Under the pieces are notes generated by a model. That model was not told where the DNA came from. It saw only the letters and a program-made list of their open reading frames with translations, and made no database searches. DNA of 64,000 nt from Acidobacteriota bacterium (GTDB lineage Bacteria; Acidobacteriota; Vicinamibacteria; Vicinamibacterales; JAKQTR01). Position numbers and translations under genes: made by a program. The stretch lies in contig JAPKZQ010000003.1 of assembly GCA_026393675.1 (NCBI GenBank), forward strand, positions 62,001-126,000, in the 5' to 3' direction. Below, piece by piece: positions 5,220-33,538 of this stretch (its first letter is position 1; each line of letters begins with the position of its first letter).

Positions 5220-5241
5220 AACAGGTGTATGTTACCGCGCC

Positions 5242-5271
5242 TTGCTTCACCCGCGACGCGGTCGGTATACT
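5242..5271 (+). promoter_or_regulatory. Promoter placing transcription start next to the kinase start codon
   Basis: TTGCTT (5242-5247) and TATACT (5266-5271) are separated by 18 bases. The expected transcription start is near 5278-5280, at the TTG codon where homology to the kinase family begins, which points to a leaderless or near-leaderless mRNA. On the other strand TAACAT (5234-5229) lies nine bases before the MenC-like GTG at 5219. Confidence 0.5.
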
Positions 5272-5279
5272 CGCCCCAG

Positions 5280-5921
5280 TTGGACTATCGCTACCTGGCC
5301 ATCGAGGGCCCCATCGGCGTCGGTAAGACCGCGCTCGCTGAACGACTTGCGGCGCGAGTGGACGCCACTGCCATCCTGGAAGACACCGAGAATCCGTTTC
5401 TCGGGGACTTCTACCAGGACCGGCCGGGCGCGGCCTTCCAGACGCAGTTGTTCTTCCTGCTGAACCGTCACCGGCAGCTCTCCGGGTTGCGTCAGACGGA
5501 ACTGTTCAGCCAGGTGACGATTTGCGACTATCTGTTTGAAAAGGACCGCATCTACGCGTACCTGGATCTGAATGACAACGAGCTGTTCATCTACCAGCGG
5601 CTGTACGAACTGCTCGCGCGCGACATTCCGCGTCCCGATCTGGTGGTCTACCTGCAGGCGCCGACCGACGTGCTGGCCAAGCGCCTGAAGGAGCGCAGCC
5701 GCGACCCTGAGCAGCAGGCCTTCCGGCCCGATCCCGGCTACGTCAAGGGGTTGAACGAGGCCTATCAGCACTTCTTCTTCCACTACACGACGACCCCCCT
5801 GCTCGTCGTAGAGACCTCACAGATCGACTTCGGCCGGAGCGACGAGGCAATCGACGACCTGGTCCGGCAGATCAAGACGCTCGGCCGCGGCACGCAGTAC
5901 TACGTGCCCAGGACACGGTAA
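5280..5921 (+). CDS. Deoxynucleoside kinase (deoxyadenosine/deoxyguanosine kinase family)
   Basis: A cytoplasmic salvage enzyme that phosphorylates deoxynucleosides with ATP. The P-loop GPIGVGKT is at residues 10-17, followed by the family's DYLFEKDRIYA segment, LVVYLQAP and the lid-region arginines KRLKERSRDPEQ. The frame is open to an ATG at 5229, but family proteins begin with a sequence like MxYRYLAIEGPIGVGKT, which corresponds to the in-frame TTG at 5280. A promoter-like element at 5242-5271 would fall inside the longer version. I therefore prefer TTG at 5280 (213 residues). It is divergent from the MenC-like gene. Confidence 0.85.
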   Translation: MDYRYLAIEGPIGVGKTALAERLAARVDATAILEDTENPFLGDFYQDRPGAAFQTQLFFLLNRHRQLSGLRQTELFSQVTICDYLFEKDRIYAYLDLNDNELFIYQRLYELLARDIPRPDLVVYLQAPTDVLAKRLKERSRDPEQQAFRPDPGYVKGLNEAYQHFFFHYTTTPLLVVETSQIDFGRSDEAIDDLVRQIKTLGRGTQYYVPRTR

Positions 5922-5937
5922 AGCGCAGTCGGTAGTC

Positions 5938-5957
5938 GGGGTTCGGGGTTCGGGGGG
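5938..5957 (+). repeat. G-rich GGGGTTC repeat
   Basis: Consecutive GGGGTTC units follow the kinase stop codon. A complementary C-rich block lies at 6102-6125. The same loose unit (GGG plus ATT/TTC) recurs at 38306-38337 and 49874-49953. The rest of the 285-base gap up to accD shows no gene. Confidence 0.6.
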
Positions 5958-6101
5958 ACTCGGAGAGGCGACCTCCCGTCTCGTGACGTGCTTCTGCCGT
6001 TGATCGACCACTGGCTTCGGAGTGCCTGAACACCAGGCCTCCAGCGCGAAAGCTCAGGACGACAATCTCGGATTCGAGTCTTTCGTCTTTCGGCTGCCAA
6101 T

Positions 6102-6125
6102 CCCGAATCCCCAATCCCGAACCCC
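6102..6125 (-). repeat. G-quadruplex-type repeat upstream of accD (minus strand)
   Basis: Read on the minus strand it is GGGG-TTC-GGG-ATT-GGGG-ATTC-GGG, four G tracts with loops of 3-4 bases, which meets the standard intramolecular G-quadruplex pattern. It sits about 80 bases before the accD start. Confidence 0.6.
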
Positions 6126-6206
6126 GTCTGCTTACACCCCGCCCGTGGGCGCCTTGTTCGTGCGCCCTGCCCTGTCTGAGCCATCTTTTGATAAGCTGTG
6201 ACCGGA

Positions 6207-7082
6207 ATGCCCTGGTTCAAGAAGGAAAAGAAGACGCCGATTGCGACCACGAAGGACACGACCGTCCGTGTTCCCGAAGGCCTGTGGGTCAAGTGTCCGT
6301 CGTGCAGCCACATCATCTACAACAAGGATCTGCAGGCCAACGTGCATGTGTGTGGCAAGTGCGCGCACCACTTTCGCATGACCGCGGCCGAGCGCCTGCG
6401 GTCACTGTTCGATGGTGACTGGGAGGAGTACGACTCCGACCTGATGTCGACCGACCCGCTGGTGTTCACCGATACGAAACCGTACCGCGAGAGACTGGCG
6501 TCCTCAATTAAGTCTACCGGCCGGCGCGACGCCATCGTCACCGCGCGGGGCCTGCTCGATGGGATCCCTGTTCACATTGCGGCCATGGAGTACGGCTTCA
6601 TCGGCGGCAGCATGGGCGTGGTCGTCGGCGAAAAAATCACGCGGGCGATCGAGCGCGCCCAGGCCGAACGCACCTCGGTCATCATCGTCTCGTGCTCGGG
6701 CGGAGCGCGCATGATGGAGGGCGCGCTGTCGCTCATGCAAATGGCCAAGGTCTCCGCCGCGCTCGCGCGGCTCGACCGGGCCAGGCTGCCGTACATCTCG
6801 GTGCTCACCGATCCGACCACCGGTGGCGTGACGGCGAGCTTCGCGATGCTCGGCGACCTGAACATCGCCGAACCCAAGGCGCTCATCGGCTTCGCGGGGC
6901 CGCGCGTGATCGAGCAGACGATCCGCCAGAAGCTGCCCGAAGGATTCCAGCGCAGCGAGTTCCTCGTCGAACATGGCATGCTCGACGTCGTGGTGGACCG
7001 GCGGGAACTCAAGGCGACCATTGCCCGCGCGCTGCGGTTCATGAGAGCCGACGAGAAGAAACCAGTAGCCAGTAGCCAATAG
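6207..7082 (+). CDS. accD: Acetyl-CoA carboxylase carboxyltransferase subunit beta
   Basis: This subunit works with AccA to transfer the carboxyl group from carboxybiotin to acetyl-CoA, giving malonyl-CoA for fatty-acid synthesis. The N-terminal MPWFKKEKK and a four-cysteine zinc ribbon (C30, C33, C49, C52) are typical, and the crotonase-fold core has the GGSMGVVVGEKI and SGGARMMEG segments of the family. The open frame begins at a GTG at 6198, but the family start matches the ATG at 6207, which also has TAAGCT nine bases upstream. The last residues derive from a short TAGCCAGTAGCC-type direct repeat, so the C-terminal end is probably not functionally important. folC follows after 45 bases, as is common. 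Confidence 0.95.
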   Translation: MPWFKKEKKTPIATTKDTTVRVPEGLWVKCPSCSHIIYNKDLQANVHVCGKCAHHFRMTAAERLRSLFDGDWEEYDSDLMSTDPLVFTDTKPYRERLASSIKSTGRRDAIVTARGLLDGIPVHIAAMEYGFIGGSMGVVVGEKITRAIERAQAERTSVIIVSCSGGARMMEGALSLMQMAKVSAALARLDRARLPYISVLTDPTTGGVTASFAMLGDLNIAEPKALIGFAGPRVIEQTIRQKLPEGFQRSEFLVEHGMLDVVVDRRELKATIARALRFMRADEKKPVASSQ

Positions 7083-7127
7083 TCAGCAGACGGTAGATCT
7101 ACTTCTTCTCGCCTCTGGCTGGATCCC

Positions 7128-8426
7128 ATGGAATCCCTGGAATACCTCTTCGGCCTCGAGTTTCACGGCCACAAGTTCGGCCTGGAGAACATCAGGGCCT
7201 TGACCGGTGCCCTCGGACGGCCCCAGGCCGCCTACCGCACGGTCTGTGTCGCGGGGACCAACGGCAAAGGCTCGGTCTGCGCGATGGTCGCTCGGGCGTT
7301 GACCGCGGCAGGACATCGAACCGGTCTGTATACGTCTCCGCACCTGGTCACCCTTCGGGAGCGGTTCGTCGTCGACGGCGAGATGGTCACCGACGTCGAG
7401 ATGGCCGCCGCGCTCGATGAGGTGCGCACCACCATCGATCGGTTGCTCGAGCATGGCGGCCTGCGCGCCCAACCCACGTTCTTCGAGGTCGTCACCTCGA
7501 TGGCGTTGGTCATGTTCCGCCAACGTCGCGTGGACATCGCCGTGCTCGAAGTCGGTCTCGGCGGACGTCTGGACGCCACAACGGTGGCAACGCCAATAGC
7601 CGGCGCCATTACGACGATTGACCTCGATCATCAGGCGCATCTCGGCGGGACGATTCGAGCCATTGCCGCTGAGAAGGTGGGCATCGCCAAGCCGGGCATG
7701 GTTGTCGTGTGCGGCGAGCGAAAGCCGGAGGCCGTCGACGTGATCGATGAGGTCTGCCGCCGTCAGGGCGCATCGCTCGTTCAGGCGTGGGACGGTGTTG
7801 ACGTGTCTGCCTCGTCGAGGGCCGGATTGACGACGATGGCGCTGCGGACGCCGGCGCGGTCGTACGCCCCGTGCACCCTCGCCCTCCGCGGGGTTCATCA
7901 GATCGGGAACGCCGTGGTGGCGGTGCGACTCCTCGAAGCATTGGACGCGGCTGGCGTCTCCGTTCCGCCTCCAGCGGTCGTCGACGGCCTCACGCGGGCA
8001 CGATGGCCATGCCGGCTTGAGCTGGTGTCGTTCGACGATGGCCGCGAGATGCTGCTCGATGCCGCACACAACCCGGCCGGAGCCGAATGCCTCGCCGCCT
8101 ACCTCCGGGATGCCTATCCAGAAGGTCTGCCACTGGTGTTCGGCGCGATGCGGGACAAGGACATCGAAGGCATGTTGCGTGTGTTGCTCCCGCACGCAAC
8201 GCGAATCATGCTGACATCCCCACCGTCGCCCCGCGCGGCGCCTCCAGCCGAGCTCGGGGCCCTCATCGCGACACTCAAACCCGAACTGCCCATTCAGATC
8301 GAACCCGATCCGTCCAAGGCGGTTGCGTGCGCGTTTCAGTTCGGGCGCGCCATCTGCGTTGCCGGCTCGATTTTCCTCCTGGGAGCAATTCTGCCGACGA
8401 TTCCGCAACACGGTCGAACCGACTGA
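7128..8426 (+). CDS. folC: Bifunctional folylpolyglutamate synthase / dihydrofolate synthase
   Basis: A cytoplasmic Mur-ligase-family enzyme that adds glutamate to dihydropteroate and folates using ATP. The ATP-binding loop VAGTNGKGSVCAMV, the YTSPHL motif, the VLEVGLGGRLDATN-like motif (here VLEVGLGGRLDATT) and the LLDAAHNPAG segment of the C-terminal domain are all present. At 432 residues it has the usual length. It lies downstream of accD in the same direction, the order seen in many bacteria. It ends about 125 bases before the next gene. Confidence 0.95.
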   Translation: MESLEYLFGLEFHGHKFGLENIRALTGALGRPQAAYRTVCVAGTNGKGSVCAMVARALTAAGHRTGLYTSPHLVTLRERFVVDGEMVTDVEMAAALDEVRTTIDRLLEHGGLRAQPTFFEVVTSMALVMFRQRRVDIAVLEVGLGGRLDATTVATPIAGAITTIDLDHQAHLGGTIRAIAAEKVGIAKPGMVVVCGERKPEAVDVIDEVCRRQGASLVQAWDGVDVSASSRAGLTTMALRTPARSYAPCTLALRGVHQIGNAVVAVRLLEALDAAGVSVPPPAVVDGLTRARWPCRLELVSFDDGREMLLDAAHNPAGAECLAAYLRDAYPEGLPLVFGAMRDKDIEGMLRVLLPHATRIMLTSPPSPRAAPPAELGALIATLKPELPIQIEPDPSKAVACAFQFGRAICVAGSIFLLGAILPTIPQHGRTD

Positions 8427-9619: not shown

Positions 9620-10219
9620 ATGGGCGACTTCTTCAAGCATCCGCTCGCGCTGGTCGAAACCGACCAGATTGGCGATAAGACCAATGTCTGGGCCTACGCG
9701 CACGTGATGAAGGGTGCGGTGGTCGGCAGCCACTGCAACATCGGCGATCACGCCTTCGTCGAAAGCGGCGCGGTAGTCGGCGACGATGTGACGATCAAGA
9801 ACGGCGTGGCGGTATGGCAATACGTCACGGTGAAGAACCGCGTGTTCCTCGGCCCCAATTGCTCGCTCACCAACGACAATCGGCCCCGCAGCAAGCGCGA
9901 TTGGACACCGGTGGCCACCACCATCGAGGAGGGCGCCACCATCGGCGCTAACGCCACGATCGTCTGCGGCTGCCACATCGGGCGCTACGCGTTTATCGGT
10001 GCGGGCGCTGTGGTGACCAGGCCGGTGCCGGATTACGCGGTGGTCCTGGGCAACCCGGGCCGCGTGCGAGGCTACGTGTGCGAATGTTGCCAGCCGCTGA
10101 TCGGGCGCGGATCGCTGCTCACGTGCAAGAAGTGCGGGCTGCGTTACAGCAAAACGAGCAAGGGCGTGACCACACTCGAGGGTGATGCGAGGCCCGCGAG
10201 GAAGACCAAGAAGCGGTGA
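9620..10219 (+). CDS. Left-handed beta-helix acetyltransferase (WlbB/WbpD-like) with Cys-rich tail
   Basis: Residues 1-150 are hexapeptide repeats of the left-handed beta-helix family (VVGSHCNIGDHAFVESGAVV, GATIGANATIV, GAGAVVTRPVPDYAVVLGNPGR), consistent with acetyl-CoA-dependent N-acetylation of an amino-sugar nucleotide. After the helix comes a short tail with CECC and CKKCG pairs, a possible zinc ribbon, not usual for WbpD/WlbB, and then a basic end. GGGGAGG-type ribosome site before ATG. The last four bases (GTGA) overlap the start of the glycosyltransferase, so it is part of an operon with the flanking sugar genes. Confidence 0.85.
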   Translation: MGDFFKHPLALVETDQIGDKTNVWAYAHVMKGAVVGSHCNIGDHAFVESGAVVGDDVTIKNGVAVWQYVTVKNRVFLGPNCSLTNDNRPRSKRDWTPVATTIEEGATIGANATIVCGCHIGRYAFIGAGAVVTRPVPDYAVVLGNPGRVRGYVCECCQPLIGRGSLLTCKKCGLRYSKTSKGVTTLEGDARPARKTKKR

Positions 10220-10947
10220 CAGCCTCCCGCCCGGCCCTTCGCGTGATGGCCGCCTCGATTGCACACAACGAGGCCGCCAAGATCGGCCGCGTCCTCGACC
10301 GCTTTCCCCCTGGTCTGGTTGATCGCATCGTCGTCGTCGACGACGCGTCCACCGACAACACTCCCAAGGTGGCGGCTGGCAAAGGCGCGGTCGTGCTGAG
10401 GCACCCGACGCGGTCGGGCGCGGGTGCTGCCATCCGCACCGCCATCAAGTACGGTCTCGCCGAGAACTTCGACGTCGTCGTCATCCTGGCCGGCAACGAC
10501 AAGGACCGGCCGCCCGAAATCGAACGACTACTTGCAGCGATTGACGATGAGGGGTGCGACTTCGTGCAGGGGTCGAGGTACCTGCCGGGCGGCGATTTCG
10601 GCAACATGCCGTTCTACCGGCAGATAGCGACGCGCATCGTGCACCCGTGGCTGTTTTCGCTGATTGTGATGCGCCGCTTCACCGACACGACCAACGGCTT
10701 CCGCGCCATCCGATTGTCAGCGTTGCGCGCGTCGGGCATCGATCTTGACCAGCCGTGGCTTGACCACTACGAGCTGGAGCCGTACCTGTTCTACAAGATG
10801 GTCCGGCTTGGATACAAGGTGAAGGAAGTGCCGGTGACCAAGATTTATCCGCCGCACGAGCTCGGCTATACCAAGATGAAACCCATCACCGGGTGGTGGA
10901 GCATCCTGCGGCCTTTGATCCTGTTGGGACTCCATATAAAGAGGTGA
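10216..10947 (+). CDS. Family 2 glycosyltransferase
   Basis: A GT-A fold enzyme like polyprenyl-phosphate sugar transferases. It has IAHNEAAKIGRVLDRF, the nucleotide-binding VVVDDASTDNT motif and a GSRYLPGG segment. The DxD-like position reads GNDKD instead of the common DADG, so metal binding may differ. The C-terminal 30 residues end in one hydrophobic stretch (WWSILRPLILLGL). Coupled by a GTGA overlap to the acetyltransferase and three bases before the aminotransferase, it likely uses or transfers the sugar made by this operon. Confidence 0.85.
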   Translation: MTASRPALRVMAASIAHNEAAKIGRVLDRFPPGLVDRIVVVDDASTDNTPKVAAGKGAVVLRHPTRSGAGAAIRTAIKYGLAENFDVVVILAGNDKDRPPEIERLLAAIDDEGCDFVQGSRYLPGGDFGNMPFYRQIATRIVHPWLFSLIVMRRFTDTTNGFRAIRLSALRASGIDLDQPWLDHYELEPYLFYKMVRLGYKVKEVPVTKIYPPHELGYTKMKPITGWWSILRPLILLGLHIKR

Positions 10948-25332: not shown

Positions 25333-27720
25333 ATGAATCGACTCCTGTTAGCGGTCGTGTCGGCACTCGCGTTGGCCGTGTCACCGGCGCTTGCGCAGCA
25401 GGCCCAGCCGCCCGTTCCGTCGCAGCAGGCCCGGCCGCCGGTTCCGCCGTTGCAGATCCAGTTGCCGGTTCCGTCGCTGCCCGGCATCAGCTCGAACTTC
25501 CAGTGGCGCGTCGAGCGCATCGGCGAATACCACTGGAGGCTGATCGGCGATGTCGAGGTGGAAAAAGACAACCTCAAGATCTCCGCCGACGAGATGGATA
25601 TCTTCACGGACAAGGACCTCCTCACCGCCAAGGGCAACGTCACGCTCACGACCCTCACTGAGCGGATATCCGCGGAATCGCTCGAGTTCAACACGCGAAC
25701 CAAGCTGGGCGTCTTCCACCATGCGTCGGGCAGTTCCCAGATCGAGAACGATCCCCGGAAGCTCAAGAACCAGTTCGGGGCGCAGGAGATCGAGATCCTC
25801 TTCTACGGCGAGACGATCGAGAAGATCGGCTACAGCAAGTACCGGATCACGAACGGCGGCTTCACGACCTGCGTGCAGGCCAACCCGCGCTGGATGCTCA
25901 CGTCCAAGTCGGTGGTGGTCAACGTCAACCACTATGCGATGCTGCGTAACGCGGTGGTCAAGGTCAAGGGCGTGCCGGTGCTCTACCTGCCGGTGGTCTA
26001 CTACCCGATCAACAAGGAGGATCGCGCATCCGGGTTCCTGCTGCCCGCCTACGGCACCTCGTCTTTGCGGGGCCAGACGATCAGTAATGCGTTTTTCTTG
26101 ACTCTCGGCCGGAGCCAGGACGCCACCTTCATGCTGGACTGGTTCTCGAAGACAGGATACGGCTTTGGCAGCGAGTATCGCCGTGTCGCCAGCGGGGGCT
26201 CAAACGCGAATCTGCGGTTGTATCGCCTCAATGAACGGCCCATCACCTACCCGAATCCCATCACAGGCGACCCCGTGTCCCAGGCAGGCCGACAGAGCTT
26301 CCAACTGACCGGATCGGCCATCCAGAACCTGCCGCTCGGTTTAAGGGCCCGGGCCAATCTCAATTACTTCTCGAGCGTCTCGGTCCAGCAGACCTACAAC
26401 ACCAACGTACTCAGCGCGACCTCCAACCAGCGCTTTGTCGGCGGGAGCGTCAATGGTAACTGGGGTTCCTACGGGGCGGCGGTCACCTTCGACCGGAGCG
26501 AGTACTTCTACAACAGCACGCAATCCACCGTATCGGGATCGGCCCCGCGGGCCTCGTTCTCGCGCAAGGAACAGCCGCTGTTCGGGTCGCCGGTTTACTT
26601 CAGCGTCGGCGGCGAATTCGCGGACCTGGTCCGCGAGACGGTGACCGCCGGCGCGGACGGCACGCGCACGACGACGGACACGGGAGTTCAACGCTTTGAC
26701 GTGATGCCCGGGATCCGCTTTCCGTTCACAAAGTGGCCGTTTTTTACGGTCAGTTCGTCGCTGGCGTGGCGGTTCACCCGGTGGAACCAGAGCCTCAACA
26801 CATCCGGTGCGCAGGTGATGGTGCCGATCGACCGCAACTACTTCAACCTGTCCGCGCAGATTGTCGGCCCGGTATTCAACCGCGTCTGGAACACGCCGGG
26901 CGGCCGGTACGCCGAGAAGATCAAGCACACGATCGAGCCGTGGTTCAACATCCAGCGGCTGACCTCGATCGACAACTTCAAACAGATCGTCATCATTGAT
27001 GGCACCGACACGATTGTCGGCGGCTCCACCCAGATCCAGTTCGGGCTGAACAACCGGTTCTACGCGAAGCGGATGGTCGGTGGGGTCGCAGCCCAGAGCA
27101 AACAGATCTTCAGTGTCGGGATCCGCCAGACGTACTACACCGACCCGGCGGCCCAGCAGTACGACGCCGCGTATGCCTCGAATCTGTACACGGCAATGGC
27201 GAGGCCTCAGAAGCTGTCGCCGATCTTGCTGAACGCCAGCGTGACACCCACCGACAACCTGAGTGCGTCGTTCACGACTGAGTACAACACGTACGTCAAC
27301 ACGTATCTCTCGTTCGGCGCGTCGGGCACCTTCAGGTTCCGCGACTGGCTCGCCACTTCGGCCGGCTGGAACAAGCGAAACTTCGGGCCGAGCGGCATCG
27401 GGATCGAGTCCATCAGCCACTACCTCAACAGCGACACGTCGGTGAACTTCATGCAGAACCGGGTTGGCGGACACGTGTCGTTCAACTGGGACCTGGGGCA
27501 CAACACGTTTCTGCAGCGCCGGTTCGTCGGCTACTACAACGCACAGTGCTGCGGATTGATTCTGGAGTACCAGACGTTCGACTTCAGCGGGCTCTACGTC
27601 GGAGGCTACACTCCCCGTGTCCTCAAGGACCACCGCTGGAATTTCGCCATCACACTGGCGGGCGTCGGCACCTTCTCGAACATCTTCGGAGCCCTCGGCG
27701 GCGGCACGACAGGCCGCTAG
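25333..27720 (+). CDS. lptD: LPS-assembly protein LptD (OstA) family
   Basis: An outer-membrane beta-barrel that inserts lipopolysaccharide into the outer leaflet. Signal peptide (residues 1-21, ending ALA), a Gln/Pro-rich linker, then an OstA/LptA-like beta-jellyroll (ISADEMDIFTDKDLLTAKGNVTL) and a long C-terminal barrel domain with alternating aromatic strands. At 795 residues it is in the normal range. The four disulfide-forming cysteines of the E. coli protein are not obvious. Its presence shows a diderm envelope with LPS. TAACCT lies nine bases before ATG, with no Shine-Dalgarno. An operon of sugar-nucleotide genes starts 43 bases downstream. Confidence 0.88.
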   Translation: MNRLLLAVVSALALAVSPALAQQAQPPVPSQQARPPVPPLQIQLPVPSLPGISSNFQWRVERIGEYHWRLIGDVEVEKDNLKISADEMDIFTDKDLLTAKGNVTLTTLTERISAESLEFNTRTKLGVFHHASGSSQIENDPRKLKNQFGAQEIEILFYGETIEKIGYSKYRITNGGFTTCVQANPRWMLTSKSVVVNVNHYAMLRNAVVKVKGVPVLYLPVVYYPINKEDRASGFLLPAYGTSSLRGQTISNAFFLTLGRSQDATFMLDWFSKTGYGFGSEYRRVASGGSNANLRLYRLNERPITYPNPITGDPVSQAGRQSFQLTGSAIQNLPLGLRARANLNYFSSVSVQQTYNTNVLSATSNQRFVGGSVNGNWGSYGAAVTFDRSEYFYNSTQSTVSGSAPRASFSRKEQPLFGSPVYFSVGGEFADLVRETVTAGADGTRTTTDTGVQRFDVMPGIRFPFTKWPFFTVSSSLAWRFTRWNQSLNTSGAQVMVPIDRNYFNLSAQIVGPVFNRVWNTPGGRYAEKIKHTIEPWFNIQRLTSIDNFKQIVIIDGTDTIVGGSTQIQFGLNNRFYAKRMVGGVAAQSKQIFSVGIRQTYYTDPAAQQYDAAYASNLYTAMARPQKLSPILLNASVTPTDNLSASFTTEYNTYVNTYLSFGASGTFRFRDWLATSAGWNKRNFGPSGIGIESISHYLNSDTSVNFMQNRVGGHVSFNWDLGHNTFLQRRFVGYYNAQCCGLILEYQTFDFSGLYVGGYTPRVLKDHRWNFAITLAGVGTFSNIFGALGGGTTGR

Positions 27721-27763: not shown

Positions 27764-28261
27764 GTGGCTGAACCCGCCAAGTACTCGGAACCGGCCGTCA
27801 AGGCACCGCGCATCGCCGGCGTCCACGTGAAGCCGCTCAAGCTCATCGCGGACGAGCGCGGCTACCTGCTTGAAATGCTGCGCGCCGACGACCCCTTCTT
27901 CACCAAGTTCGGCCAGGTCTACATCTCGGCCACCTACCCGGGTGTGGTCAAGGCGTGGCACTACCACACGGTGCAGGTGGACTACTTCGTCTGCATCACC
28001 GGCATGGTCAAGCTGGTGTTGTACGACTCGCGCACGGATTCGCCCACCCACGGCGCCATCAATGAGTTCTGCCTGGGCGAGCAGAATCGCAGCCTGGTAG
28101 TGGTGCCGAATCTGGTATACCACGGCTGGAAGTGCATCAGTCCGGAGATGTCGCTGGTGGTGAACATCCCGACCGAAGTGTACCGATACGACAATCCCGA
28201 CGAATATCGCGCGGAACCGCACGGCGTGCTGCCGTACGACTGGACGCGGAAGGACGGCTAG
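27764..28261 (+). CDS. RmlC-like cupin (dTDP-4-dehydrorhamnose 3,5-epimerase family)
   Basis: 165 residues. LIADERGYLLEMLRADD, SATYPGVVKAWHYHTVQ and CITGMVKLVLYDSR follow the RmlC pattern, including the active-site histidine (WHYH). RmlC epimerises dTDP-4-dehydro-6-deoxyglucose at C3 and C5; related proteins act on one carbon or as isomerases, so the exact reaction is open. The open frame begins inside lptD at 27617, but GTG 27764 with AAGGA seven bases upstream is the credible start. rmlB follows after two bases. Confidence 0.85.
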   Translation: MAEPAKYSEPAVKAPRIAGVHVKPLKLIADERGYLLEMLRADDPFFTKFGQVYISATYPGVVKAWHYHTVQVDYFVCITGMVKLVLYDSRTDSPTHGAINEFCLGEQNRSLVVVPNLVYHGWKCISPEMSLVVNIPTEVYRYDNPDEYRAEPHGVLPYDWTRKDG

Positions 28262-28263
28262 GC

Positions 28264-29283
28264 ATGGTTGACGTGTTGGTGACAGGCGGCGCAGGGTTCA
28301 TCGGCAGCAACTTCGTCCGGTACGCGCTTCGGACGCACCCAGACTGGCGGGTGACGACGCTCGATAAGTTGACGTATTGCGGGCGGCTCGAGAATCTGCA
28401 GGACGTGATGGCCGATCCGCGACACCGATTCGTCAAGGGCGACATCGGCGACGAGGCCGTATCGGCGCCGCTCGTCAAGGCGTCGGAGATCGTCGTGCAC
28501 TTCGCGGCCGAAACCCATGTGGACCGGTCGCTGCAGAATGCGGGCGAGTTTATTCACACGGACGTCTTCGGGACGTTCGTGCTGCTCGAAGCCGCACGTC
28601 AGGCGCCCGACCTGCGACGCTTCGTTCAGATTTCAACCGACGAGGTCTACGGGTCCGTGCCGACCGGCGTGTCGAGGGAAACCGACGAACTCCGGCCACG
28701 CAATCCGTATTCGGCGAGCAAAGCCGGCGCAGACCGGCTGGCGTACAGCTACTGGGCCACCTATCACGTGCCGGTTGTCATCACGCGTGCGTCGAACAAC
28801 TACGGGCCCAACCAGTTTCCCGAAAAGGTCATCCCGCTGTTCATCACCAACGCCCTCGAGGATCGCGGCCTCCCGCTCTACGGCGACGGCCTGAACGTGA
28901 GGGACTGGCTCCACGTTGAGGATCACTGCCGGGGTGTCGATCTGCTGCTGGAAGAGGGCGAGCCGGGCGAGGTCTACAACATCGGCGGCGGCAACGAAAT
29001 CCCCAACGTCGAGCTGACCAGGCGGATCCTGCAGTTGACGGGCAAGCCCAACACGCTCATTACGCCGGTCGCCGACCGCGTGGGCCACGATCGGCGCTAC
29101 GCGCTCGACACGTCGAAGCTCAAGGCCCTCGGCTGGACGCCGCAGGTGGCCTTCGCCGACGGGCTTCGCGCCACGGTCGACTGGTATCGAGGAAATCGGT
29201 GGTGGTGGGAACCGATCAAGCACCACGACCCGGCGTTTCAGTCGTACTACAAGGCCCAGTACGAGACGCGCCGTGGAGCCTAA
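28264..29283 (+). CDS. rmlB: dTDP-glucose 4,6-dehydratase
   Basis: A short-chain dehydrogenase-type enzyme that makes dTDP-4-dehydro-6-deoxyglucose. It has the NAD-binding VTGGAGFIGSNF, LDKLTYCGRLENL, the catalytic STDEVYG (Thr-Asp-Glu) and NPYSASKAGAD (Tyr/Lys) motifs, plus ASNNYGPNQFPEK and VRDWLHVEDH. These are highly specific to RmlB. 339 residues. The chosen ATG lies two bases after the RmlC-like stop; the longer frame runs into that gene. rmlA and rmlD are not adjacent, so the product may feed another 6-deoxysugar made by the next genes. Confidence 0.94.
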   Translation: MVDVLVTGGAGFIGSNFVRYALRTHPDWRVTTLDKLTYCGRLENLQDVMADPRHRFVKGDIGDEAVSAPLVKASEIVVHFAAETHVDRSLQNAGEFIHTDVFGTFVLLEAARQAPDLRRFVQISTDEVYGSVPTGVSRETDELRPRNPYSASKAGADRLAYSYWATYHVPVVITRASNNYGPNQFPEKVIPLFITNALEDRGLPLYGDGLNVRDWLHVEDHCRGVDLLLEEGEPGEVYNIGGGNEIPNVELTRRILQLTGKPNTLITPVADRVGHDRRYALDTSKLKALGWTPQVAFADGLRATVDWYRGNRWWWEPIKHHDPAFQSYYKAQYETRRGA

Positions 29284-29321: not shown

Positions 29322-30272
29322 ATGAGCCGCCACACGACGGTGCTGGTCACGGGTGCGGCCGGATTCGCAGGCAGCCACCTGCTCGACGTGCTGCTCGCGC
29401 GCGACTGCCGCGTAGTCGGGTTGCGACGGCCGGGCATCGGCGCCGAGGTGCAGGCGCGGTACCCCCAGGTTGAGTGGCTCGAAATCGAGTTGCTCGATCG
29501 CGATGTTGTGCGGCACACACTCGTAGGCATCGCGCCCAATGTGCTGTACCATCTGGCCGGCGCACCGCACGCGGGACAATCGTGGGGAAATTCCACCGAC
29601 ACGCTCGCCATCAACGTGCTGGCGACGCACCACGTGCTCGAGGGCATTCGCGTCGCCGGGCTGCAGACGCGAGTCATCATCCCGAGTTCGGCGTATGTCT
29701 ACCGGCCAGCCAATCATGCGCTCCGCGAAGACGATCCGATCGAGCCGGTCAATCCGTACGCCATCAGCAAGATCGCCACGGAGCTGGCTGCCCGGCGGGC
29801 CACCATCCACGATGGGATCCCCGTGGTGGTTGCCAGGTCCTTCAATCATCTCGGGCCGCGTCAGGCTTCGTCGTTCTTCGGCTCCGCGGTCGCCCGACAG
29901 ATCGCGCAAATCGAGGCGGGCCGCCTCGAGCCGGTGATTCGCGTCGGCAATCTCGACGCGCGCCGCGACTTTACCGACGTACGCGACACGGTGCGGGCCT
30001 ATGTCGCCCTGGCTGAGCGCGGTGTGCCCGGTCGGATCTACAACGTCTGCTCCGGTCAGGCGCGAGTGGTTCGCGAATTGCTCGATGGCCTGACAGCCCT
30101 GTCGCGGGTGCCGGTCACGGTGCAGCCTGACCCGGATCGGTTCCGGCCGAATGACACGCCGCTGCTGCTGGGCAATCCGTCGCGGATCACCAGCGAGATC
30201 GGCTGGAGACCAGAAATCCCGTTCGGCCAGACGCTGCAGGATCTGCTCGACTACTGGCGCCAAGCCTTGTGA
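29322..30272 (+). CDS. GDP-4-dehydro-6-deoxymannose reductase-like NAD-dependent epimerase
   Basis: 316 residues of the extended SDR family: VTGAAGFAGSHLLDVLL, YHLAGAPHAGQSW, the NPYAISKIATE catalytic motif and SFNHLGPRQ, the last typical of GDP-6-deoxymannose reductases (RMD). It probably reduces a 4-keto-6-deoxy nucleotide sugar, here perhaps the RmlB product. ATG 29322 starts the Rossmann strand. Its last four bases overlap the next gene (GTGA). Confidence 0.82.
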   Translation: MSRHTTVLVTGAAGFAGSHLLDVLLARDCRVVGLRRPGIGAEVQARYPQVEWLEIELLDRDVVRHTLVGIAPNVLYHLAGAPHAGQSWGNSTDTLAINVLATHHVLEGIRVAGLQTRVIIPSSAYVYRPANHALREDDPIEPVNPYAISKIATELAARRATIHDGIPVVVARSFNHLGPRQASSFFGSAVARQIAQIEAGRLEPVIRVGNLDARRDFTDVRDTVRAYVALAERGVPGRIYNVCSGQARVVRELLDGLTALSRVPVTVQPDPDRFRPNDTPLLLGNPSRITSEIGWRPEIPFGQTLQDLLDYWRQAL

Positions 30273-31249
30273 GGCGGTACGTGCAAGTCCTTGTCACCGG
30301 AAGTACCGGGTATCTTGGGCGAGCCATTGTCAGCGCCCTCCAGCGATCGGGACATGCCGTGGTCGCCTATGGCCGATCAGCCTCTACGAGCGGACTTCCG
30401 GCAACAGCTATCGATGGCGACATTCGCGACGCGGCGGCCGTGGCCCGGGCGGCCGGTGACTGCGACGCCATCATCCACGCCGCCGCACTCGTGGCGGTGT
30501 GGCGCAAACAGCCCCGAGAATTCGACGACATCAATGTCGGCGGTCTGGCCAACGTGCTCGAGGCCGCGCGCCAGCACGGAGTCCCGCGCATTGTCTATAC
30601 CTCGTCATTTCTCGCACTACCACCCGACGGCTACAGGGGCATCTCGGCCTGGAACGATTACCAACGCACTAAAGCCCTGGCCTCGCAGATGGCCGACCGC
30701 GCCGTGGCCCAGGGGGCGCCGCTCATCCGTCTCTACCCTGGCGTGATCTACGGCCCCGGGCGCATGACGGACGGCAACCTCGTTGGAAGAATGATCGCGG
30801 ATCACCTGGCGGGCCGGCTTCCCGGGCTCGTGGGGAGCGATCACATCTGGTCGTTTGCCTATGTGGACGATGTGGCGGCTGCGCATGTGGCGGCGCTCGA
30901 ACGGGGCCAGATTGGTGGCCGCTATCTTCTGGGCGGCGAGAACGCGCCGCAGATGCGCGCCTTCGACATCGTCCGCGAAATCACGGGGCGACCGCTGCCA
31001 CGCCGCCTGCCTGACTGGCTCGCGTCGTGCGCGGCGCTGGTCGACGAACTGCGGGCCACGTGGCTGGGCGCGACGCCGCAGTTGACCACGGGTACGCTCG
31101 AAATCCTCCTCCATGATTGGCCGCTCGACAGCACGCGCGCCGAACAGGAACTTGGGTACCATGTGACGCCGCTGCGGGACGGCATCGCGAACATCGTGTC
31201 GTGGCTGGCATCGGAACGCTTAGCGGTCCAGGGGGCATCGGCATCGTGA
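30269..31249 (+). CDS. NAD-dependent epimerase/dehydratase, HpnA/dihydroflavonol reductase-like
   Basis: 326 residues; LVTGSTGYLGRAIVSALQRSG is the cofactor loop and YQRTKALASQM the catalytic YxxxK. The order and the VIYGPGRMTDGNLVGRM segment resemble hopanoid-associated sugar epimerase HpnA and related reductases, but a specific substrate cannot be given. It overlaps the preceding and following genes by four bases each (GTGA), so it is translationally coupled to the prenyl-kinase fusion gene. Confidence 0.8.
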   Translation: MRRYVQVLVTGSTGYLGRAIVSALQRSGHAVVAYGRSASTSGLPATAIDGDIRDAAAVARAAGDCDAIIHAAALVAVWRKQPREFDDINVGGLANVLEAARQHGVPRIVYTSSFLALPPDGYRGISAWNDYQRTKALASQMADRAVAQGAPLIRLYPGVIYGPGRMTDGNLVGRMIADHLAGRLPGLVGSDHIWSFAYVDDVAAAHVAALERGQIGGRYLLGGENAPQMRAFDIVREITGRPLPRRLPDWLASCAALVDELRATWLGATPQLTTGTLEILLHDWPLDSTRAEQELGYHVTPLRDGIANIVSWLASERLAVQGASAS

Positions 31250-32589
31250 CGCGCAGCTATTCGGAAACCCGGCGGAAGCTGCTGCACATCGGCATGGGCG
31301 GGTTTGCGCTGCTGCTGCGCGTGCTGACGTGGCAGCAGGCCGCGCTCGGTGCCATCGCCGCGCTCCTCTTTAATCTGTTCGTGCTGCCACGGCTTTTCGG
31401 CGCCTCGCTCAACCGGCCGGCCGACCAGTCGCGAGGGTACCCGATCGGCATCCTGCTCTATCCGCTCGCGGTGCTGCTGCTGATCCTGGCATTTCCATCG
31501 CGGCTCGACATGGTCGCCGCCGCGTGGGGCATCCTGGCGTGCGGCGACGGTGCTGCGACGGTTGCCGGGCGCGCGTGGGGACGCCATCCCGTGCCGTGGC
31601 AACCACAGAAGTCGCTGGAGGGCCTTGCCGCCTTCGTCGTCTTCGGCGGCATCGCGGGCGTGATGCTGGCCTGGTGGACCGCGCCAGCGGTCAACCCTCG
31701 CCCGCCCATCGAGTTCATCGTCGTGGCACCATTGCTCGCGGCGGTGGCCGCGGGACTGGCCGAGACGGTGCCCATCCAACTCGATGACAACCTGACGGTC
31801 CCGGCTGTCGCAGGCGCGACGCTGTGGCTGCTCGGGCTTGTCACCGCCGATGTGTGGACGGTGGCGCAAGCTGTCGTCTGGCAGCAGTTGCCCATGGCGC
31901 TGGCAGTCAATTCGGTCGCGGCTCTGGGAGGATGGCGCGTTGGGACGGTCCGCATCTCGGGCATGCTCATCGGCTGGACGATCGGCGTCGTCGTCTACAG
32001 TTGCGCCGGCCTGGGGGGATGGACGTTGCTCTTCGCGGCGTTTCTCGCGGCAGCCGTGTCGTCGAGGCTGGGCCTGAGGAAGAAGGCGCTACTCGGAATC
32101 GCCGAGGAGCGAGGTGGCCATCGCGGGGGTGGCAACGCGTTCGCAAACACGGGCCTCGCGGCGGTGGCGGCGCTGGCGGTTGTCCTCACGCCCTACCACG
32201 ACGCGGCGCTACTAGTGTTTGTGGCCGTCCTGGCCACGGGCGGCAGCGATACGGTAGCCAGCGAAATCGGAAAGGCGTGGGGCGGCAAGACGTACTTGAT
32301 CACGACGTTCTCGCATGTGCGACCCGGAACGCCAGGCGGGATGTCGCTCGAAGGCACGGTGGCTGGCGTGCTGGCGGCACTGGCGCTGGCCATGCTTGGC
32401 GCCTGGCTCCACTTGATCCCGGTGTCGTTGGTCTGGGCGGTCGTCGCGGGCGCCATCGCGGGGTCGCTTGTCGAGAGCGCATTGGCCGCGACGCTCGAGG
32501 CTCCCGGCATCGTCAACAACGACGTGCTCAATTTCCTCAACACCGCCACGGGCGCCATTGTGGCGCTTGTTCTGATGAGGGTGTGCTGA
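31246..32589 (+). CDS. Fused phytol/dolichol kinase-like (VTE5) and DUF92 (VTE6-like) membrane protein
   Basis: 447 residues, almost all membrane helices. The N-terminal half begins SETRRKLLHIGMGG and has CGDGAATVAGRAWG and KSLEG, the motif set of CTP-dependent phytol and dolichol kinases (VTE5-like). The C-terminal half has ATGGSDTVASEIGKAWG (residues 331-346), KTYLITTF and RPGTPGGMSLEGT, typical of DUF92/TMEM19 proteins, which include plant VTE6, a phytyl-phosphate kinase. One protein could thus make a prenyl diphosphate from a prenol by two steps. The open frame reaches 31117, but GTG 31246 overlaps the upstream stop (GTGA) and starts the family motif. The UbiA gene follows with a one-base overlap. 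Confidence 0.82.
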   Translation: MTRSYSETRRKLLHIGMGGFALLLRVLTWQQAALGAIAALLFNLFVLPRLFGASLNRPADQSRGYPIGILLYPLAVLLLILAFPSRLDMVAAAWGILACGDGAATVAGRAWGRHPVPWQPQKSLEGLAAFVVFGGIAGVMLAWWTAPAVNPRPPIEFIVVAPLLAAVAAGLAETVPIQLDDNLTVPAVAGATLWLLGLVTADVWTVAQAVVWQQLPMALAVNSVAALGGWRVGTVRISGMLIGWTIGVVVYSCAGLGGWTLLFAAFLAAAVSSRLGLRKKALLGIAEERGGHRGGGNAFANTGLAAVAALAVVLTPYHDAALLVFVAVLATGGSDTVASEIGKAWGGKTYLITTFSHVRPGTPGGMSLEGTVAGVLAALALAMLGAWLHLIPVSLVWAVVAGAIAGSLVESALAATLEAPGIVNNDVLNFLNTATGAIVALVLMRVC

Positions 32590-33503
32590 TGCTTTCGGAT
32601 CGCATGCGCACGGTGGTGGATCTGGCCCGGCCGTTCACGTTGATCGCGCCGGCCCTCGGCTTCGTGTCGGCGGCGGCCACGGCGATTGGCGCGCAACCGC
32701 GTGAGACGTGGAGTTGGTGGCTCGTGTTGCCGCCCGTCCTTGGCGCGATCATGGCGGCGGTCCTCAACATCGCATCAAACGGCCTCAACCAGATCTTCGA
32801 TCTCGAGGTCGACCGCATCAACAAGCCGAAGCGGCCGTTGCCAAGTGGACGGATGGGATTAGGTGAAGCGTGGGGCATCACGTTCACGGGTTTCGCGATC
32901 GCGTTCGTGCTGGCGTGGTTCGTGGCTCCGGGCGGCCGGCACGAGTGCTTCTGGATGGTCCTGGCAGCCGCCGTCATCACGACGCTCTACTCGGTGCCCC
33001 CGTTCCGCACGAAGCGGCTGGGCATCTGGGCCAATGTGACGATTGCGATCCCTCGCGGCGTCCTGCTGAAGGTGGCGGGCTGGTCGTCGGTGAAGAGCGC
33101 TGCCGGGCTCGAGCCATGGTACCTGGGCGCGATTTTCGGTCTGTTCCTGCTTGGCGCGACCACTACGAAGGATTTCGCCGACATGGAAGGCGACGCGCGG
33201 GGCGGATGCCGGACGCTGCCCATTCAGTATGGCGTGGCGCGGGCGGCGTGGATGATCTCACCGTCGTTCGTGCTGCCGTTCCTCATGATCCCGCTAGGCG
33301 TGTGGCTGCGCATCCTCACCGGCAACCCCTTGCTGCTGCAGGGGCTGGGTGTGGTGATGACGGCGTACGGTCTGTATGTCTGCTACCTGATGCTGCGCCG
33401 GCCCGACACGCTCGCCATCGAGGAGAACCACGTGTCGTGGGCACACATGTACCGCATGATGTTCGTGGCCCAAATCGGCTTCGCGCTGGCGTACCTGCTG
33501 TAG
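32589..33503 (+). CDS. UbiA-family prenyltransferase
   Basis: 304 residues with about eight membrane helices. The first aspartate-rich motif is NGLNQIFDLEVDRINKPKRP, the second DFADMEGD, both needed to bind Mg and a prenyl diphosphate. The pattern fits homogentisate/chlorophyll-type and archaeal DGGGP-type UbiA enzymes as well as quinone ones; the acceptor is unknown. TGATG overlap with the VTE5-VTE6-like fusion gene suggests the upstream protein supplies the prenyl diphosphate. Longer open frame to 31824 is out-of-family sequence inside the upstream gene. Confidence 0.88.
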   Translation: MLSDRMRTVVDLARPFTLIAPALGFVSAAATAIGAQPRETWSWWLVLPPVLGAIMAAVLNIASNGLNQIFDLEVDRINKPKRPLPSGRMGLGEAWGITFTGFAIAFVLAWFVAPGGRHECFWMVLAAAVITTLYSVPPFRTKRLGIWANVTIAIPRGVLLKVAGWSSVKSAAGLEPWYLGAIFGLFLLGATTTKDFADMEGDARGGCRTLPIQYGVARAAWMISPSFVLPFLMIPLGVWLRILTGNPLLLQGLGVVMTAYGLYVCYLMLRRPDTLAIEENHVSWAHMYRMMFVAQIGFALAYLL

Positions 33504-33510
33504 CCGATCG

Positions 33511-33538
33511 TCGGGTCTGAAGACCCGGCTTCCTTCTA
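33511..33538 (+). terminator. Probable terminator between ubiA-like gene and htpX
   Basis: CGGGTC/GACCCG (33512-33527) with a TGAA loop followed by a pyrimidine-rich TTCCTTCT tract, at the convergent end of two transcripts. It could serve both strands. Confidence 0.5.

Follow-up and report, generated by a model that had tools for sequence, protein, structure and literature searches.

A fused VTE5/VTE6-like protein paired with a UbiA-superfamily prenyltransferase in Acidobacteriota, a predicted prenol and prenyl-phosphate kinase

FUS, the fusion protein considered here, is a two-domain membrane enzyme encoded on the forward strand at positions 31246–32589 of a 64,000-nucleotide stretch of DNA from an Acidobacteriota bacterium (contig JAPKZQ010000003.1; the whole stretch is called the window), whose genome comprises 3.25 Mb in 46 contigs and is 98.6% complete. 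Families, motifs and a structural model predict that FUS is a cytidine triphosphate (CTP)-dependent kinase of prenols and prenyl phosphates, and our preferred reading, with a probability of roughly 0.55, is that it is bifunctional and feeds the UbiA-superfamily prenyltransferase encoded directly behind it (32589–33503, +) for the synthesis of an envelope prenyl lipid. The N half would convert an isoprenoid alcohol to its monophosphate, the C half, of the DUF92 family, would add a second phosphate to yield the prenyl diphosphate, and UbiA would join the latter to an acceptor to form a membrane prenyl lipid. The kinase steps are suggested because the VTE5 and VTE6 families carry such activities in plants, and the prenyl transfer is likewise predicted from family. 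The new element is the strict pairing of FUS with this UbiA family in Acidobacteriota.

The FUS frame runs from a GTG at 31246 to a TGA at 32587–32589 and encodes 447 residues. An earlier note on the window had described a membrane protein of this length carrying the motifs of both kinase types, and its frame, its coordinates and every quoted motif were confirmed. The N half (31246–31845, +) is VTE5/Sec59-like, with RKLLHIG at residues 9–15, GDGAATVAG at 100–108 and KSLEG at 122–126; prenol kinases of the VTE5/Sec59 type show the pattern GDG..G, K, E..DDN. The C half (31846–32586, +) is DUF92/VTE6-like, with GGSDTVASEIGKAWG at residues 332–346, RPGTPGG at 359–365, and the series RGG..GNA, SDTVASEIGK, PGTPGG..EGT and NND. 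DUF92 (PF01940) matches residues 224–436 with 133 bits (gathering cut-off 27.5), and TIGR00297, the hypothetical equivalog of DUF92, was not reached (156.7 bits, 205.85 required). CTP_transf_1 scores 25.5 bits on residues 1–200 (cut-off 24) and drops under the cut-off, to 22.9 bits, when residues 1–235 are used; at 0.01 it matches the N halves of 7 of 15 members. The domain match, marginal by sequence score alone, and the invariant motifs together place the N half in the CTP_transf_1 type. Missing catalytic residues were looked for in aligned FUS proteins, and the motifs proved to be kept in both halves: among 18 such proteins, R10, H14, G100-D101-G102, K122, E173, D181 and N182 are invariant, D335, S339, E340, K343, D426 and N432 show little or no variation, and most of the DUF92 motifs are gone in a single protein (from locus L040).

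Co-occurrence of the two genes was surveyed in 80 relatives, the source genome included, and in 396 Acidobacteriota genomes. FUS matched in 31 of the relatives and UbiA in 27. Two of the 31 matches are not intact fusions (G013 has a DUF92-type half only, and G070 has lost the DUF92 motifs); UbiA is present in 26 of the remaining 29 genomes, the other three (G025, G031, G079) having FUS at a contig end, and in G069 UbiA lies at a contig start with no FUS. Because FUS recurs in this many relatives and is followed by UbiA in most mapped loci, the locus is far from a chance arrangement. Across the 396 genomes, FUS or DUF92 was found in 148 and UbiA in 106, and all 106 UbiA genomes carry FUS, 104 with both halves and two (G296, G338) with the N part only. 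UbiA was detected in none of the 23 genomes with stand-alone DUF92 proteins. For four of the 148 genomes (G125, G175, G176, G229) coordinates were missing, and these were put in neither class; five contained N-half-only or cut matches. Fisher's exact test of both halves against UbiA gave p ~7e-79, a value made too strong by the kinship of the genomes. The coupling of the fusion to UbiA proposed in the earlier note is thus very strong, and since several UbiA genomes (e.g. G093, G118, G337) have the two genes on separate contigs, linkage alone does not explain the pairing. A stand-alone DUF92 protein replaces the fusion in certain Acidobacteriota families, mostly f24 (loci L157–L162), and UbiA is absent there as well.

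The UbiA gene directly overlaps the FUS gene, as noted earlier: its ATG at 32589 shares one base with the FUS stop (TGATG). The UbiA superfamily is defined by two aspartate-rich motifs, NxxxDxxxD and DxxDxxxD, and the product belongs to it by both a PF01040 match (123 bits, cut-off 34.2) and these motifs, N67/D71/D75 and D195/D198/D202 being invariant in 23 UbiA sequences. It falls in an unnamed clade near digeranylgeranylglyceryl phosphate (DGGGP) synthase, ChlG and homogentisate phytyltransferase. Among solved structures it stands closest to DGGGP synthase (6m31) and chlorophyll a synthase (9sau), yet it stayed under every curated cut-off tested: 127 of 269 bits for PRK12884, 109.6 of 313 for ChlG, 106.3 of 226 for homogentisate phytyltransferase and 89 of 296 for the DGGGP synthase model. 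These scores would favor a prenyl donor for tocopherol-, chlorophyll- or archaeal-type ether lipid synthesis, but the missed cut-offs make such a role very improbable; in addition, PcrB exceeded its cut-off in none of the 80 relatives, which speaks against the ether lipid, and tocopherol cyclase was found in 0/80, a search whose sensitivity is unproven as no control genome came up clearly positive. The genome encodes three other UbiA proteins (a heme o synthase, an MqnP/UbiA-like enzyme and a decaprenyl-phosphate phosphoribosyltransferase-like protein), so the UbiA at 32589–33503 is unlikely to serve respiratory quinone synthesis. The last of the three (L004, 1375–2328, on G000:C9) scores 302 bits against a cut-off of 234 for the decaprenyl-phosphate phosphoribosyltransferase family, in a bacterium bearing lipopolysaccharide (LPS). 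Across the compared loci UbiA comes close to the core enzyme AccD in conservation (mean distances 0.27 and 0.26, against 0.48 for FUS), and pairwise-distance correlations (r of 0.64 for FUS-UbiA, 0.64 for FUS-LptD and 0.60 for FUS-FolC) are uninformative.

The full-length FUS model is confident (pLDDT 90.7, pTM 0.88). The best PDB match of the C half is the CDP-archaeol synthase CarS (5guf; Z 9.0, root-mean-square deviation (rmsd) 3.7 over 118 residues), followed by CdsA (4q2g; Z 7.2, rmsd 3.9 over 151 residues). When the N half was modeled separately, CarS was again its best match (Z 8.8, rmsd 2.6 across 103 residues), and CdsA matched as well (Z 6.4). Because the CarS/CdsA family heads both match lists, each half is read as having the CTP-transferase fold, and FUS as two copies of it; the kinase-type assignment of the halves made in the earlier note is in line with this fold and with the motifs kept in relatives. 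Comparing the two halves by sequence profile (E 0.045, probability 1.2%) is alone no proof that they are homologous; the structure match of each half to CarS says more. Searches of PDB sequences with FUS or its halves gave no useful match, and Foldseek alone gave none at E ≤ 0.001 for the full-length or N-half model; the absence of a dolichol kinase structure from the fold lists counts neither for nor against the assignment. TRIC channels and MATE transporters also appeared in those lists at Z 5–7 and were taken as chance helix packing.

CarS and CdsA share the fold of each half, but they are cytidylyltransferases, and by sequence FUS belongs to kinase families. If their lead were taken at face value, the order of steps might be reversed: UbiA would first make a prenylated alcohol, which FUS would then phosphorylate and activate as a CDP- (cytidine diphosphate) or diphospho-lipid, with a CarS/CdsA-like DUF92 half. 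The UbiA scores near DGGGP synthase models would suit this order, as would an archaeal record (L133, 9998–15372) in which an SDR (short-chain dehydrogenase/reductase) gene on the other strand, FUS, UbiA and a polyprenyl synthetase stand in series. We consider it distinctly unlikely, as the characterized plant member of DUF92 is a kinase, CarS and CdsA lead simply as the solved structures of the fold, and some genomes keep FUS without UbiA. In the same archaeal record DsbA-like and exosortase-like genes come after the polyprenyl synthetase, a possible hint that proteins are anchored by lipid.

Upstream of FUS, all on the forward strand, lie genes for an LptD-like outer-membrane protein (25333–27720), an RmlC/WbuC-like cupin (27764–28261; PF00908, 54.8 bits), a dTDP-glucose 4,6-dehydratase, RmlB (28264–29283; TIGR01181, 445 bits, cut-off 365), a nucleotide-sugar 4-reductase-like protein of the GDP_Man_Dehyd family (29322–30272), assigned by family searches and conserved in the loci of relatives, and an HpnA-like extended SDR, a putative NAD(P)-dependent reductase or epimerase (30269–31249). 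The 6-deoxysugar genes and four-base overlaps reported in the earlier note stand, the overlaps lying between the nucleotide-sugar reductase-like and HpnA-like genes (30269–30272) and between the latter and FUS (31246–31249); its "epimerase" is only HpnA-like, TIGR03466, the model of the hopanoid-associated epimerase HpnA, giving 198 bits against a cut-off of 367.65. Missing from that note were the LptD-like gene, the fact that the HpnA-like reductase co-occurs, and the co-occurrence across the phylum. The LptD-like product belongs to the LptD family (PF19838, 33.8 bits, cut-off 22.5) and is the sole PF19838 match and the only LptD candidate found in the genome, where PF04453 was not found. LpxC occurs in 76 of the 80 relatives, which makes LPS nearly universal in the order; with this gene the sole candidate, the first gene of the operon probably encodes the LPS exporter. 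As a marker, LpxC failed to tell FUS genomes from those lacking FUS.

The neighborhoods of FUS were surveyed in named loci retrieved with two peptide patterns; the patterns came from this group and the best 80 of 90 loci were kept, so the scan is no proof of absence elsewhere. After removal of 14 loci that were not full-length and 20 with short flanks, 46 loci flanked by 4 kb or more on each side remained. Within 4 kb of FUS these contain UbiA in 36, the sugar reductase in 32, LptD in 29 and an SDR in 27, counts in which cross-hits between SDR paralogues are possible. The common layout in the order of this genome is dGK, AccD, FolC, LptD, (RmlA), (cupin), RmlB, reductase-like, (HpnA-like SDR), FUS, UbiA. 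In four records titled Thermoanaerobaculia, Holophagales, Thermoanaerobaculum and Acidobacteria (L104, L105, L114, L128), LptD, an RmlA-cluster gene, RmlD (its identity tested in L104), two dehydratase/reductase genes, SDR, FUS and UbiA are found, so the link to sugar genes seen in the window recurs in other classes. FUS thus lies behind LptD-like and 6-deoxyhexose nucleotide genes in several classes, mostly also where UbiA is lacking. Because these genes travel together, we guess that the product of the pathway, or a precursor shared with it, has its place in the outer envelope. FUS and UbiA could instead form a unit to which LptD and the sugar genes are chance neighbors, a doubtful account that denies the envelope link only and is compatible with the kinase part. 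Six Terriglobia- or Acidobacteria-titled records (L107, L109, L112, L113, L115, L119) with UbiA, SDR and FUS but no LptD fit such hitch-hiking, while LptD recurs with FUS in differently arranged loci of several families, immediately before it in three (L173, L176, L182), and sugar genes stay by FUS in three loci where UbiA and LptD are both absent (L170, L180, L181). The LptD operon of the window also occurs in a record titled Acidimicrobiia bacterium (L097), a title that is probably wrong.

In the order of this genome, the HpnA-like reductase tracks the FUS/UbiA pair even from other contigs. It occurs in 26 of the 80 relatives at E 1e-40, and 24 of these carry FUS; of the other two, G069 carries UbiA, and the contig of G059 ends seven bases past the reductase match. 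The reductase lies on a separate contig in 11 of the 26, where its neighbors (rhomboid, another SDR, leucyl/phenylalanyl transferase, sigma factor) give no hint of a pathway. Since the protein is only HpnA-like, its substrate need not be a sugar. We guess that, where present, it would interconvert prenal and prenol ahead of the kinase or modify the acceptor. FLDH is likewise an extended SDR, and the three-step dolichol route with DHRSX seems to be another case of an oxidoreductase acting alongside a prenol kinase; by likeness to FLDH, possible action on prenal/prenol is a lead. In Arabidopsis, FLDH and FOLK, a reductase and a prenol kinase in series, serve farnesal/farnesol salvage according to the accessible text of PMC13415981. 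Unlike the FUS set, FLDH-FOLK has neither a fused second kinase nor a UbiA partner. In G075 the relocated reductase (L148, around 9702–10646) has a TGA and a TAA within the match.

Several observations weigh against a bifunctional FUS that serves UbiA. The analysis turned up no gene that would supply the prenol, many relatives have a degenerate KSLEG (KS/KT..G), and all PDB matches have Z ≤ 9, a range in which helical membrane proteins may match by shape. The genomes are related, so the co-occurrence counts are not independent; the reductase is missing at E 1e-40 in 5 of the 29 intact-FUS genomes (G025, G039, G045, G050, G067), and UbiA is missing from 12 of the 116 two-half FUS genomes. In ten of these twelve (all except G194 and G297), dehydratase/reductase genes lie just upstream of FUS in seven (G070, G084, G098, G123, G302, G304, G382), G227 has LptD only, and G169 and G231 have neither LptD nor sugar genes. 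Because eight of the ten keep sugar genes or LptD, FUS also has some role independent of UbiA.

This link to sugar genes or LptD in the lack of UbiA is a point for a carrier-lipid supply, in which the N half would rephosphorylate a long polyprenol, giving the monophosphate that carries sugars for the assembly of LPS or a glycan with the adjacent 6-deoxyhexose, the DUF92 half and UbiA forming a side branch. Two FUS proteins (L040 in G070 and L182 in G227) that have lost the DUF92 motifs and kept the N-half GDG, K and E..DD motifs point the same way. Such a supply is nevertheless unlikely, given the presence of FUS in every UbiA genome, the intact DUF92 motifs in 27/27 aligned FUS proteins from UbiA-bearing genomes or loci, and a conserved block that contains no glycosyltransferase; the loss of these motifs in 2/10 examined FUS genomes without UbiA, against 0/27 with it, is suggestive only. 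The preferred kinase-and-transfer reading could also be extended to an undescribed prenyl glycolipid, in which the fused kinase would activate a recycled prenol, UbiA would transfer it to a headgroup, a 6-deoxyhexose would be attached, and export to the outer membrane or sorting there would involve the Lpt machinery, the gene of its LptD being the first of the operon. This version is rather improbable as a whole; the role of the sugars is a guess, as was the glycolipid product of the earlier note, drawn from gene order. The geranylgeranyl reductase superfamily was tried as a marker of chain saturation and is uninformative, with matches in 75 of the 80 relatives. In two loci an intact FUS without UbiA lies beside kinase/FGE-sulfatase genes (L163, 9089–10450; L183, 9042–10394).

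In plants, a UbiA enzyme uses the prenyl diphosphate supplied by VTE5 and VTE6. Like this pair, known from plants and cyanobacteria, FUS would provide two successive CTP-preferring kinases leading to a prenyl diphosphate; VTE5 and VTE6 are separate proteins with phytol drawn from chlorophyll, whereas FUS is a single chain. Plant VTE5 is a phytol kinase and the DUF92 protein VTE6 a phytyl-phosphate kinase, as given in the accessible part of a review that presents two independent enzymes as the consensus for prenol salvage and counts only a handful of known genes (PMC9782597). Both are said to accept geranylgeraniol and geranylgeranyl phosphate too (PMC13415981, accessible text), and in the case of FUS nothing points to phytol as such. 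The fusion itself is already known from archaea: a Sec59-COG1836 fusion was described in 2015 for Methanosarcina barkeri Mbar_A3310 (arCOG02245) and, in the accessible text, read as two cytidylyltransferase-family halves with conserved aspartates (PMC5898192). FUS has the same arrangement, with a dolichol-kinase-like half N-terminal and a DUF92 half C-terminal, and belongs to this archaeal type as judged against the published description rather than an archaeal sequence. The same text names uppS as the only conserved neighbor of arCOG02245, in contrast to the UbiA, reductase, sugar and LptD genes around FUS in Acidobacteriota (PMC5898192). No paper turned up by the literature search describes FUS, UbiA and reductase grouped with LptD and 6-deoxyhexose genes for Acidobacteriota; most subscription papers fell outside that search, as did vom Dorp et al. 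2015, which may mention bacterial fusions. Combined in one bacterial protein and almost always accompanied by UbiA, this version of prenol salvage offers a compact, expressible system for its study, and points to a not-yet-described envelope lipid in a widespread soil phylum.

As to the remaining features of the window, the start codons of the genes at 27764, 28264 and 29322 were picked automatically by script. A terminator-like hairpin lies just 3' of UbiA (33510–33529, +), a weak candidate given that seven hairpins were found in the region against 4.8 expected. The dGK-AccD-FolC genes (5229–8423) lie about 17 kb from LptD here. Because they adjoin LptD in most relatives, this genus underwent an insertion or rearrangement of the segment with radical SAM and M16 peptidase genes.

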